Program-made: the position numbers and the translations under genes | In this document: positions 184-5,738 of the stretch, piece by piece | Layout: each line of letters starts with the position of its first letter | Numbering within the stretch: position 1 is the stretch's first letter | NCBI GenBank assembly: GCA_026989935.1 | Contig: JALSIN010000441.1 | Span: forward strand, 1 to 40,300 | Length of the DNA stretch: 40,300 nt | Reading direction: 5' to 3' | Source of the DNA: Polyangiaceae bacterium | GTDB taxonomy: Bacteria; Myxococcota_A; Polyangia; Nannocystales; Nannocystaceae | The notes under the pieces: model-generated | Databases searched by the model: none | What the model saw: the letters and a program-made list of their open reading frames with translations, nothing else | Told to the model about the DNA's origin: nothing

Positions 184-1338
184 TCATCGGTGGGCGCGAA
201 CCGGCGACCGGCGCGATCGACGGCGGCGAAACGCCCATTCGGCGGTGACCTCGATCCCCGAGGCGATCTCGAAGCCGCCGGCCCGCACCCGGGCGCGGCT
301 CCCGGCATGCTCGAACGAGGGCACGTGCGCCCGGCCGCCGGCGAACGACAGACCGGCCCCGAGCTCGGCATACGGCCCTACGCGCACCCGCCGGCCGGCC
401 CCCTCGAAGACCCAACTCGCCGCCAGGCGCACGGCGCCCCCGACGAGCCACGGCCGCCGGCGCTCGCCGCCCCGTGTCGCGGGCGCGACCCGCCCAGCCA
501 CCAGGGGCACGACGGGCTCGGCGTACACGAGGCCGGCGGCCGCAAGCACGACGTCCCGCACGCGCGTTACGGCCCCGAGTCCCACGTCCGTGCGGATTCG
601 CAGGACCCCGGCCCCGGGACCCACGTCGCGCCCGGCCAGCCGAAGGCCGAGCCGCGCCGACAGGCCGTCCGGGCGAAGCAACCGCAGGGCCAGACCGCCG
701 CCGGCCGCGGCGAACACGTCCCCGCCCGCCGGGCGGCCCGGCGCCAGCACCGTGCCCCCGGAGACGGCCAACCCGACCCACGATGGCGCGGGGCCGGAGG
801 AACGCGCGCGGGGCTTCGGGGCGGCGAGGGTCGGGGTGGCGGCCGGTGGGGTCAGCCCCGGCTTCGGCGGTTTCGGCGCATCGCTCGCCGCCACGGGGGT
901 TTCCCGGCCCTGCTCGATCCCCAGGAGCAGGTGGGCGACGGTCATGGCCGCCAGGCGCTCGGGCTCGTCGGCCCCGTCCGGTGCGACGGCCCGCTCGTAC
1001 CGGAGACCGTCGGGGGTGGTCACGCGCACGAACAGGGGATCCGGCCCCTCGAGGGCAACGATCGTCGCCCCCTCCCCTCGGGGCCGCGCGGCCGCCGCCT
1101 CTCCCCTCGGCATCAGGGTCACCGTCCGGCCGCGCAGGCGAACCGCCAGGGCCTGCTCGAGCCGCACGGGGTCGAGCCCCTCGGCCGCGACGACCACCCG
1201 ACCGAGGCGCGGGGCCGGGTCACGGCCGGCGGCACCCGCCCGCCCGGGGTCCGGCGGCGACGGCTCGACCGGCGCCATGGCCCCGACCCCGACGAGGAGG
1301 GCGACAGCGAGGGCGGGTGGGGGCATCGTGGCGCCCAT
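184..1338 (-). CDS. Secreted barrel-like protein of unknown function
   Basis: About 384 residues. A hydrophobic Ala/Leu/Val stretch near the N-terminus looks like a signal peptide. A region of about 120 residues follows with a DPVRLEQAL segment and the motif ERLAAMTVAHLLLGIEQG, then a Pro/Ala-rich linker. The second half alternates Gly, Ala, Val and aromatic residues, as in a small outer-membrane or periplasmic beta-barrel, with phrases such as VGPYAELGAGLSFAGG. No catalytic motif was seen and I cannot name a family. It is the last gene of the minus-strand sigma cassette, 196 bp after the preceding stop, so it may be co-transcribed or have its own promoter. The start is uncertain: ATG at 1338, ATG at 1326, or GTG near 1377, which would add basic residues to the signal peptide. 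None has a strong Shine-Dalgarno sequence. Confidence 0.65.
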   Translation of the reverse strand: MGATMPPPALAVALLVGVGAMAPVEPSPPDPGRAGAAGRDPAPRLGRVVVAAEGLDPVRLEQALAVRLRGRTVTLMPRGEAAAARPRGEGATIVALEGPDPLFVRVTTPDGLRYERAVAPDGADEPERLAAMTVAHLLLGIEQGRETPVAASDAPKPPKPGLTPPAATPTLAAPKPRARSSGPAPSWVGLAVSGGTVLAPGRPAGGDVFAAAGGGLALRLLRPDGLSARLGLRLAGRDVGPGAGVLRIRTDVGLGAVTRVRDVVLAAAGLVYAEPVVPLVAGRVAPATRGGERRRPWLVGGAVRLAASWVFEGAGRRVRVGPYAELGAGLSFAGGRAHVPSFEHAGSRARVRAGGFEIASGIEVTAEWAFRRRRSRRSPVRAHR

Positions 1339-1534
1339 GGTGCCCGATCGGGACCCCGCGCCATAGGGCCCGCGCACCGGTCCCACCCGTCACGGCACCG
1401 ACGGTGGACCCACGCCCGCGCCGCCCGCCGGCCTCGCGGGACCTCCAACGTCGCTGCGGCCAGGCACCGTGCGAGCGCGGCGCACCCTCCCGGATGCAGT
1501 TCGGGGTCGATCCACGAGGCGTCCGGAGCACCCG

Positions 1535-2215
1535 TCACCCCGGGGGGCACACGGAGCTGGCCACGCACGCCGGGCCGGCCCCGGCGACCTCGCAACAGCT
1601 TCGGTCGCCGCAGGCCTCGCACGGACACGCCCCGCAGGGGGCGGGCCACGCGTCGCGGCACGTCCCGCCGGCGCACACCTCGCCGCCGTCGCACGGCTTC
1701 TCGCACCCGCCGCAGTGCAGGGGGTGGCCGTCCGTTCGCACGCAGGCGCCGTCGCAGTCGGTGTAGCCGCTCGGGCAGGCGGCCTGCGTGCACGCGCCTT
1801 CGAGGCAGCGCTGGTCGCCGCCGCAGGCCTGCCCGCAGCCGCCGCAGTGCTCCGGGTCGCTCGCCAGGTCGAGGCAACCCTCGCCGCAGCGGGTAAGCCC
1901 CGGCCGGCAGGTGCACACCCCCGCGTCGCAGACCTCGGTGGCCTCGTCGCAGCCCCCGTCGCACGGGTCGGTGCAGCCTCCGCCCACGCACGCCGTCCCG
2001 GCCGCGCACGCCCGGCCGCAGCCGCCGCAGTGCAGGGGGTCGGTCTGCGGGTCCACGCACACCCCGTCACACGGGAGGCGGCCGTCCGCGCAGGCCGGCC
2101 CCCCCGTGGTGGCCGTCCCGCCGCCGCCGTCCTCCCCCCCGATCTGGTAGACGGCGCCGCAGGCGGCGGTCCACACCAGCGCCACGAACGCCGCGAGCCG
2201 GCCGACCGCCTTCAC
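1535..2215 (-). CDS. Cys-rich repeat lipoprotein (3 repeats)
   Basis: 226 residues. The N-terminus is a lipoprotein signal ending in the lipobox TAAC, so Cys19 would be lipidated and the protein held at the outer or inner membrane. The mature part holds three repeats of the type CDGVCVDPQTDPLHCGGCGRAC (here 22 residues per unit, Cys spacing CxxxC and HCGGCG) and a divergent Cys-rich C-terminus with a CC pair. Such repeats recur in myxobacterial surface proteins; their ligand is not established as far as I know. The start is GTG at 2215, overlapping the upstream stop as GTGA, with AAGGAGG 10 nt upstream, so translation is coupled to the TPR protein. It has the same repeat type as the lipoprotein at 4042-5052, so the two flank the sigma factor gene. 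I infer a sensory or adhesive role. Confidence 0.8.
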   Translation of the reverse strand: MKAVGRLAAFVALVWTAACGAVYQIGGEDGGGGTATTGGPACADGRLPCDGVCVDPQTDPLHCGGCGRACAAGTACVGGGCTDPCDGGCDEATEVCDAGVCTCRPGLTRCGEGCLDLASDPEHCGGCGQACGGDQRCLEGACTQAACPSGYTDCDGACVRTDGHPLHCGGCEKPCDGGEVCAGGTCRDAWPAPCGACPCEACGDRSCCEVAGAGPACVASSVCPPG

Positions 2216-3300
2216 GGCGCCTTCGCCTCCTTGATCGCTCGGCGCGCCTCGGCCACGTGGGCGCCGCTCGGGTGCCGCGCCAGGTAGGTGCGCCAGCACG
2301 CCGCGGCCTTCGGCGCCGGGGCCAGGCGGCACAACCCCGCGCGGGCGTCCGAGGCGAACCGACCGCGGGGAAAGCGGGCGAGGTAGCGCCGGAAGGTCGC
2401 CTGGCGCCGGGCCGGCGACGCGCCGCGCTGGTCCGCCAGCAGGAACAGCTCGCCGAGGGCGATCTCGACGCGCGGGTGACGCCCCCCCTCGGCCACGAGC
2501 CGGCGGAACAGGCGCTCGGCCCGCCGCAGCTCGCCAGCACGCCAGGCCGCTCGGGCCTTGCGATCGAGCGCGGCCAGGCGGGCGTCGAGGGCGGGGCCGG
2601 TCGGCGGAGCCGCATGTTCCGGGGGTTCCGGGTCGGTCGCCTGGGCCATGCTCGCCGGCCCGGGGCCACCGTCCCCGCCCGAAGCGGTGGCGACCCCGTC
2701 GCTGGTCGGCGCCGGGCCGACGGTCTCGGAGCGCCTCACCAGCCCCGAGCCGCGTTCCGAGTCCGCGGCCGGAACGGGCGAACCGCCACCGGCTCTCGCC
2801 ACGGCCACGGCGGGCGCAGCGCGGCGTACGGCCTGGGCCGGTGCGGAACCGGCGGAGGGAGCGAGGATCCGCGTGGCGGCAAGCGCCCCGGCCCCCACGA
2901 ACAGCAGCACGGCCGCTGCCGCGGCGACGGCGCGAGCCGGACGCCACCGCCCCGAACCGCCGCGTCGGACCTCGGGCGGGGGCGCGCCCACCGGTCCGAG
3001 TGCGCGCTCGGCGAGCTGGTCGTCGAGGTGCCGCCGGGTCGCCTCGACGAAGACGCCCAGACGCTCCGCACGCGTCCGGGCCGCGGCCAGCGGCACCACC
3101 GGCGCGAGATCCCGGGTGGCGGCCACGAACGCCTCGGAGACGGCGCGCGGGTCGAGGGCTCGGGCGCGCTCGGCCACGGTGACGGGGTCGGTCGCCGCGT
3201 CGGCCCGCGCGAGACGGCGGTCGAGCTCGTCGCGCAGGGCCTCGCAAAACGGCGCCAGGGGCGACGGTTCCTGCGGCGGACGGGAGGCGCCGCCGCTCAC
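2212..3300 (-). CDS. Single-pass protein with C-terminal TPR-like repeats, possible anti-sigma factor
   Basis: 362 residues from a GTG start at 3300 that overlaps the sigma factor stop (GTGA). Residues 1-110 are charged and helical and would be cytoplasmic. Residues about 122-144 form one clear membrane helix. Residues about 150-245 are a Pro/Ala/Gly-rich periplasmic linker. Residues about 250-360 form TPR/YbgF-like helical repeats (AERLFRRLVAEGG, ATFRRYLARFPRGRFASDAR, CWRTYLARHPSGAHVAEARR). There is no CxxC or HxxxCxxC zinc-finger anti-sigma motif. The position directly after an ECF sigma gene, translational coupling and the cytoplasm-membrane-periplasm layout suggest a transmembrane regulator of that sigma factor: the N-terminal domain would hold it and the TPR domain would sense the envelope. 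This is inference from layout, since I do not recognise the N-terminal domain. Confidence 0.8.
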   Translation of the reverse strand: MSGGASRPPQEPSPLAPFCEALRDELDRRLARADAATDPVTVAERARALDPRAVSEAFVAATRDLAPVVPLAAARTRAERLGVFVEATRRHLDDQLAERALGPVGAPPPEVRRGGSGRWRPARAVAAAAAVLLFVGAGALAATRILAPSAGSAPAQAVRRAAPAVAVARAGGGSPVPAADSERGSGLVRRSETVGPAPTSDGVATASGGDGGPGPASMAQATDPEPPEHAAPPTGPALDARLAALDRKARAAWRAGELRRAERLFRRLVAEGGRHPRVEIALGELFLLADQRGASPARRQATFRRYLARFPRGRFASDARAGLCRLAPAPKAAACWRTYLARHPSGAHVAEARRAIKEAKAP

Positions 3301-3914
3301 GAGGCACCCCCCACGTCCCAGCCCAGCCCGGCGAGGCCGTCGCGCACGCGCCGTCGCGCCCGGCTCGCGCGCACCCGCAGCGTCCCCGGCCGCACACCCA
3401 GGAGGCCGGCCGCCTCCTTGGGGGGCACGCCGCGCAGGTCCACCAGCACGAAGGCCTCGCGCAGGACGGGCGGGAGCGTCTCCAGCACCGCGAGCAGGGC
3501 CTCGGCGCGGCGCTTTGCGAGGTGGTCGGACTCCACGTCGGCGCCCGCCGGGGGGGCGAGGCAGCTGCGGACCTCCCGCAGGCGCTCGAGGGCACGGCGG
3601 CGCCGGCCGCGGGCACGGTAGGTCTTGCGCGCCAGGTTCAGCAGGATCCCGCGCAGCCACCCCCCGAACCCGGCGCGGCCTTCGAAGGTGTGGATCTTCG
3701 CGAGCGCCACGGCGAAGGCCTCGTGCACCAGGTCCTCGGCTTCCGTCACGTTGCCCAGGAGGTACGTGGCCTCGCGGAGCGCTTCATGGAAGCAGATCTC
3801 GTACAGCCGCGCCCACGCCTCGGCGCGCCCGGCCCGGGCCCGCTCGACGAGGATGGCCTCGAGAGCGCCTCGCTGCGCGCGGGGCTGGGCGCCCGGGTCG
3901 GGGCCCGTGTCCAT
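3297..3914 (-). CDS. ECF-type RNA polymerase sigma factor
   Basis: 205 residues from ATG at 3914. Region 2 spans about residues 18-100: the RAEAWARLYEI helix, then AEDLVHEAFAVALAKIHTFEG, which matches the core-binding DxxQExF-like segment, then FGGWLRGILLNLARKTYR. Region 4 spans about 138-193, with LETLPPVLREAFVLVDLRG followed by the helix-turn-helix KEAAGLLGVRPGTLRVRASRAR. Regions 1.1 and 3 are absent, which defines an ECF (group 4) sigma factor. The same frame extends upstream to 4097, but that part is low-complexity Pro/Gly/Ala and overlaps nothing needed; 3914 starts just before the conserved fold, and ATG at 3977 is the alternative. The gene overlaps the next one by GTGA and follows the Cys-rich lipoprotein after 127 bp. 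Target promoters are unknown; autoregulation is likely for the class. Confidence 0.93.
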   Translation of the reverse strand: MDTGPDPGAQPRAQRGALEAILVERARAGRAEAWARLYEICFHEALREATYLLGNVTEAEDLVHEAFAVALAKIHTFEGRAGFGGWLRGILLNLARKTYRARGRRRRALERLREVRSCLAPPAGADVESDHLAKRRAEALLAVLETLPPVLREAFVLVDLRGVPPKEAAGLLGVRPGTLRVRASRARRRVRDGLAGLGWDVGGAS

Positions 3915-4041
3915 CGTCGCCCCGGACGCACGCCGCGGACCGGCCGCGGGTGCCTCGGAGGGACGGGGCCCGCCCATCGCTACCCGCGCCTCCCCCACCC
4001 CGACGCCGCGCGGGCCGACCGGCCCCGGGTCGCCGTCGGGG

Positions 4042-5052
4042 CTACTTGCGACAGTCGCCTTCCACGCAGTTCTCGCCGGCGTCGCACGGGTCCCCACAGT
4101 CTCCGCAGTTTAGCGGATCGGTCTCCAGATCGGTGCAGCTTGCGCCGCACTGGTCGGGAAAGCCGTCACAGCTTCCGACGCACTGGCCGCCGCCGCACAC
4201 CGTATCGGCCGGACACGCGTTCCCGCACCCACCGCAGTGGTTCGGGTCGTTTTGCGGGTTGACGCAGCGGTCGCCGCAGCGCACGAAGCCCGGGCGACAC
4301 TCGCAGCTTCCCATGCTGCAGACCTCCGTGCCGTCGGCGCAGTGCACCCCACAGGCCCCGCAGTTGTTGGGGTCGTTTTGCAGGTCGGCACACTCCCCGC
4401 CGCACAGCTCGGCGCCCTGGGCGCAGGTGCACTGCCCGCCGACGCAGGCGCCCCCATCCCCGCACTCGACGCCACAGGCCCCACAGTGGTCGGGGTCGGA
4501 GTTTACGTCCACGCACCGGTCGCCGCAGCGGGTCAGCCCCTCGATGCACACGCAGCTCCCATTCATACAGGACTGACCGAAGCCGCAGTCGTTGCCGCAG
4601 CCGCCGCAGTGGAGGGGGTCCGAGCTCGTGTCGGGGCAGGCCGCGCCGCAGGGGGTGGTCCCGGCGGGACACATGTCGGTGCAGGTGCCCGCAGCACACA
4701 CCTGGCCCGGTGCGCAGGCATTGCCGCAGCCGCCGCAGTGCTGCGGGTCGGATTCGGTGCTGCGGCATTCCCCGGCGCAGAACGTGGCGCCCTCGGGGCA
4801 CTCGGACAGGCAGGTCCCGGCCACGCAGGTAAAGCCGTCGCCGCAGGCGTTGCCGCACGACCCGCAGTGGTCGTCGTCGTCGGACAGGTCCACGCAGGCC
4901 ATGCCGCACAGGGACTTGCCGGCGCCACAACCGCCGCCGGCCGTGGCGCCGCCCGAGCCGCCGACCCCGGCATCGTCGCCGCACCCGGCGGCGAGGAAGG
5001 CGGTGAGCAAAGGGACAAGGAAGGGGACGAAGGTGGAACGAATGGGTCGCAT
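4042..5052 (-). CDS. Cys-rich repeat lipoprotein (7 repeats)
   Basis: 336 residues from ATG at 5052, with GGAGA 5 nt upstream; a GTG just before it is less likely. The signal peptide ends in LAAGC, giving lipidated Cys24. The mature protein is almost wholly seven copies of a repeat of about 40 residues whose core is CGxxCVDLxxDPxHCGGCGxxC, separated by linkers such as GQVCAAGTCTDMCPAG. Each core carries about five cysteines, so the protein must be a disulfide-rich rod outside the cytoplasm. The first unit varies the core (SDDDDHCGSCG). It lies 127 bp upstream of the ECF sigma gene on the same strand and has the same repeat type as the lipoprotein at 1535-2215. A surface sensor or sigma target is plausible, but no enzymatic motif is present. 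Confidence 0.85.
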   Translation of the reverse strand: MRPIRSTFVPFLVPLLTAFLAAGCGDDAGVGGSGGATAGGGCGAGKSLCGMACVDLSDDDDHCGSCGNACGDGFTCVAGTCLSECPEGATFCAGECRSTESDPQHCGGCGNACAPGQVCAAGTCTDMCPAGTTPCGAACPDTSSDPLHCGGCGNDCGFGQSCMNGSCVCIEGLTRCGDRCVDVNSDPDHCGACGVECGDGGACVGGQCTCAQGAELCGGECADLQNDPNNCGACGVHCADGTEVCSMGSCECRPGFVRCGDRCVNPQNDPNHCGGCGNACPADTVCGGGQCVGSCDGFPDQCGASCTDLETDPLNCGDCGDPCDAGENCVEGDCRK

Positions 5053-5080
5053 CACGTCTCCGTGGCTGCTCTCCCGTGCC

Positions 5081-5097
5081 CGATCGTCGGTCGATCG
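5081..5097 (-). promoter_or_regulatory. Tandem ACGATCG boxes upstream of the 7-repeat lipoprotein
   Basis: On the minus strand, ACGATCG occurs twice with an 11-bp centre-to-centre distance, about one helical turn, 28-45 nt upstream of the lipoprotein start codon. Each CGATCG is itself palindromic. The spacing and place suit a regulator or the -35 area of an alternative sigma promoter. No factor can be assigned. Confidence 0.3.
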
Positions 5098-5303
5098 TTA
5101 CGTCGCGCAGATCGCGCCGTCACCCCGCCACGGCGCACACGGCCGCCCCCGCGGTCTCCAATGCCCCCGATCGTGCCGTCGGCCGGCGCGGGCCGAGGGC
5201 CGCCGCCCGCGGTGGAACTCGCCGCAGGCCGGTGGGGGCGGCTCCCCTGGCGCCTCGTTCGGGCGCCGTCCCAGGGGAACGCGGCCGGGGCGCCGGGCCG
5301 TGT

Positions 5304-5738
5304 TCATGCACCGGACGCGGCGCCGAGCACGTGGCGCCGCGCCGTGTCGGGATCGTGCGTCACCACCACGTCCACGCCGTCGGCCCGGGCGTGCCGCGCC
5401 ACCTGCAGGGCCCCGACCCGCGTGCGCACCAGCACCACCACCCGCGACCCGGCGGTCAACAGCCGCCTGCGAAACGGGATCACGGCCTGCTCGTAGGCGT
5501 CGTCGTTGCGACCCGGCGCGTCCCGAAGGTCCACGAGCACCCCGGCCGGGCGGGTCGCCTCGAGGTACGCGAGGATCGGCTCGTAGGCCCGGGCCAGGTC
5601 CGTCACCTCCATGCGCGTGCCGGTCCGCCGCACCACGACCGCCGTCTCGTCGAGCCGTTCGACCTCGAACCAGCGCGACGGCGACGGCAGCGCCGGAGCA
5701 GCGGATTTGGGCTCGGGCTCCGACACGATGACGAACAT
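5304..5738 (-). CDS. SpoIIAA/STAS-like protein of unknown function
   Basis: 144 residues from ATG at 5738, preceded by AAGGTGG. A beta-rich N-terminus (SRWFEVERLDETAVVVRRTG) is followed by a helix LARAYEPILAYLEATRP, a buried strand GVLVDLRDAPGRNDDAYEQ and another strand SRVVVLVRTRVGALQVARH. This alternating pattern resembles the SpoIIAA-like/STAS fold, in which a strand and short loop hold the functional surface. No phosphorylatable Ser is obvious in the expected loop; Asp residues occupy that place. The gene is alone, divergent from clpS. The assignment is fold-level only. The frame extends upstream to 6053, but that part is Arg-rich low complexity and was excluded. Confidence 0.65.
   Translation of the reverse strand: MFVIVSEPEPKSAAPALPSPSRWFEVERLDETAVVVRRTGTRMEVTDLARAYEPILAYLEATRPAGVLVDLRDAPGRNDDAYEQAVIPFRRRLLTAGSRVVVLVRTRVGALQVARHARADGVDVVVTHDPDTARRHVLGAASGA

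Follow-up and report, generated by a model that had tools for sequence, protein, structure and literature searches.

Which signal controls an extracytoplasmic function (ECF) sigma factor whose gene lies among genes for cysteine-rich lipoproteins? This question is raised by a gene cassette in the 40,300-nucleotide (nt) window analysed here, contig JALSIN010000441.1 (C441) of the Polyangiaceae bacterium assembly GCA_026989935.1 (G000, referred to as the own genome; 4.47 Mb in 471 contigs). The organism is placed in the Nannocystaceae, which are predatory soil and marine bacteria. We compared the cassette with 29 Nannocystaceae-type genomes, from which 44 modules of this family were fetched with 6-14 kb of context. 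Based on these sequence comparisons, a core unit of sigma factor, tetratricopeptide repeat (TPR) protein, lipB-type lipoprotein and outer-membrane (OM) barrel protein is conserved and co-inherited. We read the cassette, with a probability of about 0.6, as an ECF sigma/anti-sigma envelope-signalling operon of the Nannocystaceae with OM lipoproteins, including Cys-rich ones, as its output.

Conservation of the cassette

The sigma factor matched sigma70 region 2 (PF04542, 4e-9), region 4 (r4_2, PF08281, 2.7e-12) and TIGR02937 (1.9e-20, above the cut-off). With sigma70 regions 2 and 4 only and about 200 amino acids (aa), it is of the ECF type. Upstream of its start codon ATG 3977 lies GGGGGAGG, and ATG 3914 is an alternative start. 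Homologs of the TPR protein were found in 25/29 genomes (two of these weak), with 1-6 copies each. A sigma gene of the same group was located directly upstream of the TPR gene in 44/44 modules, mostly with a 4-nt overlap, and an OM barrel gene was located downstream in 42/44. Of the two modules without it, one is near a contig edge (L089) and the other has no barrel gene in reach (L073). In another family (f5) the barrel gene is found upstream of the sigma gene instead (L103, L104, L106, L108, L110), so the association of sigma, TPR and barrel genes survives rearrangement. The pairwise distances of sigma factor, TPR-protein N-domain, TPR domain, barrel N-domain and barrel were strongly correlated (r 0.77-0.86, Mantel p ≤ 0.001), as expected of units inherited together. 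Outside the Nannocystaceae-type family the TPR family is nearly absent, since a profile search of 282 genomes of the phylum gave weak matches only in f5 and one other.

Two variants of the gene pair were also observed. In Plesiocystis pacifica (L101, G008:C110) the sigma and TPR genes are in one frame, with a single stop codon and a short spacer between them. In the own genome, two other ECF sigma genes, at C4:33677 and C417:5046 (L116, L117), each have a weak match to the TPR profile downstream, and are perhaps distant paralogs of the pair.

A sequence-only reading of this stretch had described five minus-strand genes, GTGA overlaps, and two lipoproteins with the same Cys-rich repeat, here called lipA and lipB. 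The gene coordinates (184-5052) agree with this, the sigma/TPR and TPR/lipB pairs each share GTGA, and Stig1 stretches occur in both lipoproteins. Gene order in relatives had been named beforehand as a check that could refute the proposal; the order was found to be kept, and the claim survives. The genes are real, with two small corrections: the start of the sigma gene is uncertain, and the fifth gene (184-1338), which had no part in the proposed mechanism, encodes the core OM barrel. The features are listed in Table 1.

Table 1. Coordinates of the cassette features in the window.
Feature	Position	Strand	Remarks
OM barrel protein, conserved core gene	184-1338	minus	ATG 1338; GTG 1386 possible
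8-stranded OmpA/NspA-type beta-barrel, residues 186-370	229-783	minus	model, fold matches
Periplasmic N-domain of barrel protein, residues 48-142	913-1197	minus	beta-alpha-beta4-alpha, AlphaFold model; no family assigned
lipB, Cys-rich lipoprotein	1535-2215	minus	4-nt overlap with TPR gene; post-lipobox CGAVYQI
TPR protein, putative single-pass anti-sigma factor	2212-3300	minus	GTG start, 4-nt overlap with sigma gene
Periplasmic TPR domain, residues 236-360	2221-2595	minus	invariant C324 and C335; model, best folds BamD/YbgF
Transmembrane (TM) helix of TPR protein, residues 121-145	2866-2940	minus	hydrophobicity, model
Cytoplasmic N-domain of TPR protein, residues 16-100	3001-3255	minus	AlphaFold helices 16-36, 39-49, 56-68, 71-100
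ECF sigma factor, minimal sigma2-sigma4 type	3297-3977	minus	226 aa from ATG 3977, or 205 aa from ATG 3914; family matches, alignment
lipA, Cys-rich lipoprotein, probable sigma output	4042-5052	minus	LAAGC lipobox, 7 Stig1/MXAN_6577 repeats
Putative operon promoter GTAACG-N13-CGGGCAC	5076-5101	minus	just upstream of lipA start; 14 nt between GTAAC and CGGG

The TPR protein and the outer-membrane barrel

In the AlphaFold model of the TPR protein a disordered linker separates the TM helix from the C-terminal domain, which is predicted to consist of 7 helices (predicted local distance difference test, pLDDT, ~97). Class I anti-sigma domains (ASDI) have four helices, the first three bundled and the fourth separate, within 101 ± 33 residues; they are cytoplasmic and in most cases precede a TM helix, and about 44% of them are without a zinc motif (PMC7406223). 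The TPR protein adjoins the ECF gene in each of the 44 modules, and its N-domain is predicted to have four helices followed by the TM helix. The Hx3Cx2C motif was absent from the N-domain in all 44 fetched modules; for the window protein, where the first 120 residues are free of it, the absence of a classic anti-sigma zinc motif had already been noted. In the model the N-domain fits the class I layout, which is a resemblance and not proof, and the TPR protein looks like a zinc-free class I membrane anti-sigma factor that probably restrains the sigma factor. Among the fold matches of the whole proteins there was no anti-sigma or signalling-domain structure, but matches to the TPR domain and to the barrel took up both lists. 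In two modules (L079, L080) the N-terminus of the TPR protein carries a further copy of the 'LxxFxxxxRxxx' helix segment, which makes the domain look like a repeated helix.

Alternatively, the TPR protein could be a periplasmic scaffold for lipoprotein and barrel and no anti-sigma factor, co-transcribed only since the sigma factor drives its own operon. This would agree with an N-domain that is less conserved than the TPR domain and has no detectable sequence match to anti-sigma families. However, low sequence conservation is usual among anti-sigma domains (PMC8999054, PMC7406223), the sigma-TPR order is strict and translationally coupled, and the four-helix cytoplasmic domain would need another purpose. 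We therefore regard a scaffold as very unlikely, and the role of an anti-sigma factor as the preferred one.

The periplasmic domain was found to be closest in fold to BamD and YbgF (Foldseek 1.7e-4). BamD (5waq) gave VIA Z 14.8 with a root-mean-square deviation (rmsd) of 3.0 over 123 aligned residues, compared to Z 11-13 for unrelated TPR proteins, and a profile built on the TPR alignment found only generic TPR-like matches among solved structures. BamD is a lipoprotein of OM-protein assembly. Because the TPR domain resembles BamD, the main rival of our reading is a surveillance of envelope biogenesis similar to sigma-E/RseA, in which the TPR domain would sense unassembled lipoprotein or barrel in the periplasm and the sigma factor would adjust lipoprotein expression by feedback. 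Besides the BamD and YbgF/CpoB folds, the OM lipoproteins as output and the operon that lipB and barrel genes share with the sensor are in line with such a role. On the other hand, TPR folds are general and a common fold shows no function, and the cassette is without a DegS- or RseB-like gene. The lipB body is also highly variable across the modules, a pattern more easily explained by variable ligands than by a general check of assembly. Taken together, surveillance seems to us a rather unlikely explanation, and we keep to signalling by an OM receptor.

In the model of the barrel protein a signal helix is followed by an N-domain, which a Pro-rich linker joins to the 8-stranded barrel; NspA/OmpA is the best fold match of the barrel (Z 16.7, rmsd 2.7, 152 aligned). 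A Pfam search on the barrel family gave nothing informative and no match to TonB-dependent receptors. An STN-type N-domain was considered and seems unlikely, as the beta-alpha-beta4-alpha order predicted from the whole-protein model does not resemble STN.

Lipoproteins and the promoter-like element

Both lipoproteins of the window are Cys-rich, with 57 Cys in 336 aa for lipA and 37 Cys in 226 aa for lipB. Seven Stig1 stretches were detected in lipA (PF04885, 1e-34), together with a match to NF041328, 'MXAN_6577-like cysteine-rich', of 254 bits (cut-off 100). For lipB there were three Stig1 stretches (1.3e-10) and an NF041328 score of 98.7 bits, just below that cut-off. Both have a signal peptide with a lipobox, LAAGC in lipA and WTAAC, weaker at -3, in lipB, and lipidation is predicted for both. 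No solved structure resembling lipA was found by sequence.

The two differ in their place among the modules. The lipA gene adjoins the sigma gene only in the window, L063 and L064, whereas the space between TPR and barrel genes is occupied by one or two lipoprotein genes in nearly every module; the first of these normally begins within the TPR stop codon. An automatic scan detected a lipoprotein right after the TPR gene in 36 modules, 33 with a post-lipobox motif and 32 with at least 6% Cys; further cases missed by the scan are visible by eye (L064, L071, L074, L075, L081, L121, L122). The motif can be written C-x2-4-[YFIVLW]-x-[VIFLYA] and reads CLKEYTI, CVLQYTV, CGIDTYVL, CTADFFV or CRVEHYDF in relatives. 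Behind it the bodies vary (STIG1-like, DPDC, PDDC...CLEQG or CCQDPEGPCC repeats), so the conserved part is the tether motif and usually Cys richness, not one repeat. By these comparisons lipB, rather than lipA, is the core lipoprotein of the cassette. As almost all modules have it in this fixed place, it alone of the two is a good candidate for the sensing side, together with the barrel protein. Eight modules (L077, L083, L086, L091, L119-L122) have two lipoproteins in this place, the second with its own post-Cys motif (CDVKVDVEE, CQIDIKGGD) and different Cys repeats.

The element upstream of lipA is the sole promoter-like element of the conserved type in the window operon, and its exact form, GTAACGN12-16CGGGCAC, occurs a single time in the own genome. 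TGTAA[CT] was present upstream of the sigma gene in 28/38 modules compared to 17/322 other genes (Fisher p 7e-22, uncorrected for relatedness). Orthologs of the window sigma factor are accompanied by the form TGTAAC-N13-CGGGNAC. The strict pattern TGTAAC...CGGGTAC gave one site in each of six Nannocystis-type genomes of 11-13 Mb, directly upstream of the orthologous sigma gene. Paralogous modules carry other promoter-like sequences, e.g. TGTAATGCC...CTCGCGGTAAG, which suggests that they are separate circuits.

With a relaxed pattern, nine sites were found in the own genome, compared to five for the reversed control. These sites include lipA and the only two other large NF041328 lipoproteins of the genome, on C183 and C200, 40-51 nt before their start codons. 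In a further search the total for the relaxed pattern (17) did not exceed that of the reversed control (16); what is informative is the position before lipoproteins and the stricter pattern. A mutated-pattern control had 0/6 sites before lipoproteins. The stricter GTAACN13CGGGNAC has three sites in the own genome, each before a lipoprotein, namely the two MXAN_6577-type proteins on C183 and C200 and an open reading frame (ORF) on C304. The C304 ORF (site G000:C304:14016, L128, also found in the relaxed search) lies at a contig end and reads as a lipoprotein start, possibly a regulon member cut by the assembly. Across ten genomes the stricter pattern gave 45 sites compared to 15 for its reverse, most of them leading into lipoproteins or the sigma gene. 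Among the sites in the sister genome G001 are those of a 67-Cys protein (C160) and of a lipoprotein with 13 Cys (C88). In Nannocystis-type genomes they recur before the sigma gene itself, a divergent lipoprotein (CDIELNGKN...), one secreted protein, and the lipoproteins CDIDLNGSVFDRDGDG..., CNLVGLPG... and CDSPGTEL.... The C after A, a position left unspecified in the relaxed search, was present in 19/20 collected sites, these having been picked from sites that lead into lipoproteins or the sigma gene.

Judged from these patterns, the most likely targets of the sigma factor are its own operon and a number of OM lipoprotein genes. Because the same element precedes unlinked large Cys-rich lipoproteins and many in relatives, the lipA-type lipoproteins seem to be output, and lipA is probably an output of the sigma factor and not a sensor. 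This bears on the proposal of the sequence-only reading that Cys-rich lipoproteins of the lipA and lipB types act as sensors at the surface and, through their repeats and the TPR protein, control the sigma factor. The sigma/TPR pair is indeed flanked by lipA and lipB, which share repeats, and lipB is a core gene. On the other side, lipA stands beside the sigma gene in three known modules only, and its homologs elsewhere are unlinked to sigma genes yet have the same promoter-like element, which fits output. The repeat is not a fixed sensor feature either, given the varied repeat types and the few Cys-poor proteins in the lipB slot. What stands of the proposal is the conserved, translationally coupled pair, the anti-sigma-like TPR protein and the orientation of the system towards the envelope; control by the lipoprotein repeats is to be doubted strongly.

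The hairpins in the lipA-sigma and lipB-barrel intergenic regions were no more stable than shuffled sequences (z 0.59 and 1.63), and a terminator or attenuator is not claimed in these gaps. Upstream of lipA the window encodes a small protein (5304-5738, minus strand), and in L063 the orthologous operon is likewise preceded by a counterpart. The gene for this protein is followed in the window by ClpS and ClpA genes on the opposite strand.

Signalling scheme and known systems

In the scheme that we propose, the four-helix cytoplasmic domain would hold the sigma factor inactive at the membrane, and the periplasmic TPR domain would read the state of lipB and the barrel protein, likely by contact with the periplasmic N-domain of the barrel protein or the lipB tether. 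On binding of a ligand or a change of occupancy in the lipB/barrel complex, the TPR protein may release the sigma factor, which would then transcribe its own operon and the scattered lipoprotein genes. Such a scheme would resemble FecI-FecR-FecA, with a lipoprotein and a small barrel replacing the TonB-dependent receptor.

Several observations count against this reading and are reflected in its probability. The N-domain has no Pfam match and no sequence match to anti-sigma families, and the lipoproteins in the lipB slot of L067, L072, L078 and L087 are Cys-poor. The promoter element was spotted by eye and tested afterwards, and its spacer in the window is 14 nt, whereas most other sites have 13. 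The counts of TGTAA[CT] upstream of sigma genes include near-identical orthologs, with 17/27 remaining once these were collapsed, and several of the genome-wide sites lie within genes, probably by chance.

For many ECF sigma factors of myxobacteria neither inputs nor outputs are known, and the same bacteria have large families of Cys-rich surface lipoproteins lacking a known role. The cassette connects the two. It also supplies a candidate anti-sigma factor, a candidate OM receptor pair and a candidate promoter, along with a limited set of putative output lipoproteins, testable in culturable Nannocystis and Plesiocystis. A literature search on the cassette, on sigma factors of Nannocystis and on MXAN_6577 gave nothing relevant, and the cassette is apparently undescribed. 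More tentatively, and as a possibility to which we give well under even odds, it could represent a lineage-specific class of cell-surface signalling (CSS; defined in PMC5411451 and PMC11637429) that has multiplied and diversified in the Nannocystaceae. The receptor would be a fast-diversifying, mostly Cys-rich lipoprotein with a small OM barrel, read by the BamD-like TPR domain of the anti-sigma factor. Each paralogous module would drive its own surface lipoproteins from a module-specific promoter, possibly for recognition or surface-coat switching of these predatory bacteria. The cassette itself, if our reading of it is confirmed, would be an example of cell-surface signalling that does without a TonB-dependent receptor. 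It would also show a recurring scheme, with a sensor lipoprotein whose body varies among paralogs and a signalling core that is kept.

Compared to known systems, the TPR protein shares with class I anti-sigma factors (RseA, RskA) a helical N-domain of about 100 residues with three short helices and a longer fourth, one TM helix and a gene right after the ECF gene, but it has no sequence-level match to them. A fusion to periplasmic TPRs is not mentioned in the main text of the ASDI classification paper. The periplasmic domain has the fold of BamD and YbgF/CpoB at only 13-18% identity, and differs from them by two invariant Cys and the fusion to a TM helix and a cytoplasmic domain; BamD itself is a lipoprotein. 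ECF42 also combines an ECF sigma factor with TPRs. There the sigma factor itself is extended at its C-terminus by the TPRs (PMC8103513, PMC8999054), whereas here the TPRs belong to a separate transmembrane protein. As to MXAN_6577-like (NF041328) and Stig1 (PF04885) proteins, lipA is a clear member and lipB falls just under the NF041328 cut-off. The NF041328 model is without a functional name, and the literature searched showed no link between these proteins and an ECF regulon.

The closest comparison is with FecI-FecR-FecA. Because the defining TonB-dependent receptor, with plug and STN domain, is not present, we do not file the cassette as a member of that system. Its OM partner is an 8-stranded barrel with another N-domain, the periplasmic part of its regulator is a TPR domain, it has an extra and often Cys-rich core lipoprotein, and its putative output is lipoproteins instead of iron uptake. 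What both have in common is an ECF sigma factor, a single-pass inner-membrane regulator, here of probable anti-sigma function, and an OM protein that are encoded together, with a sensing side that would lie in the OM and an output that includes envelope proteins.

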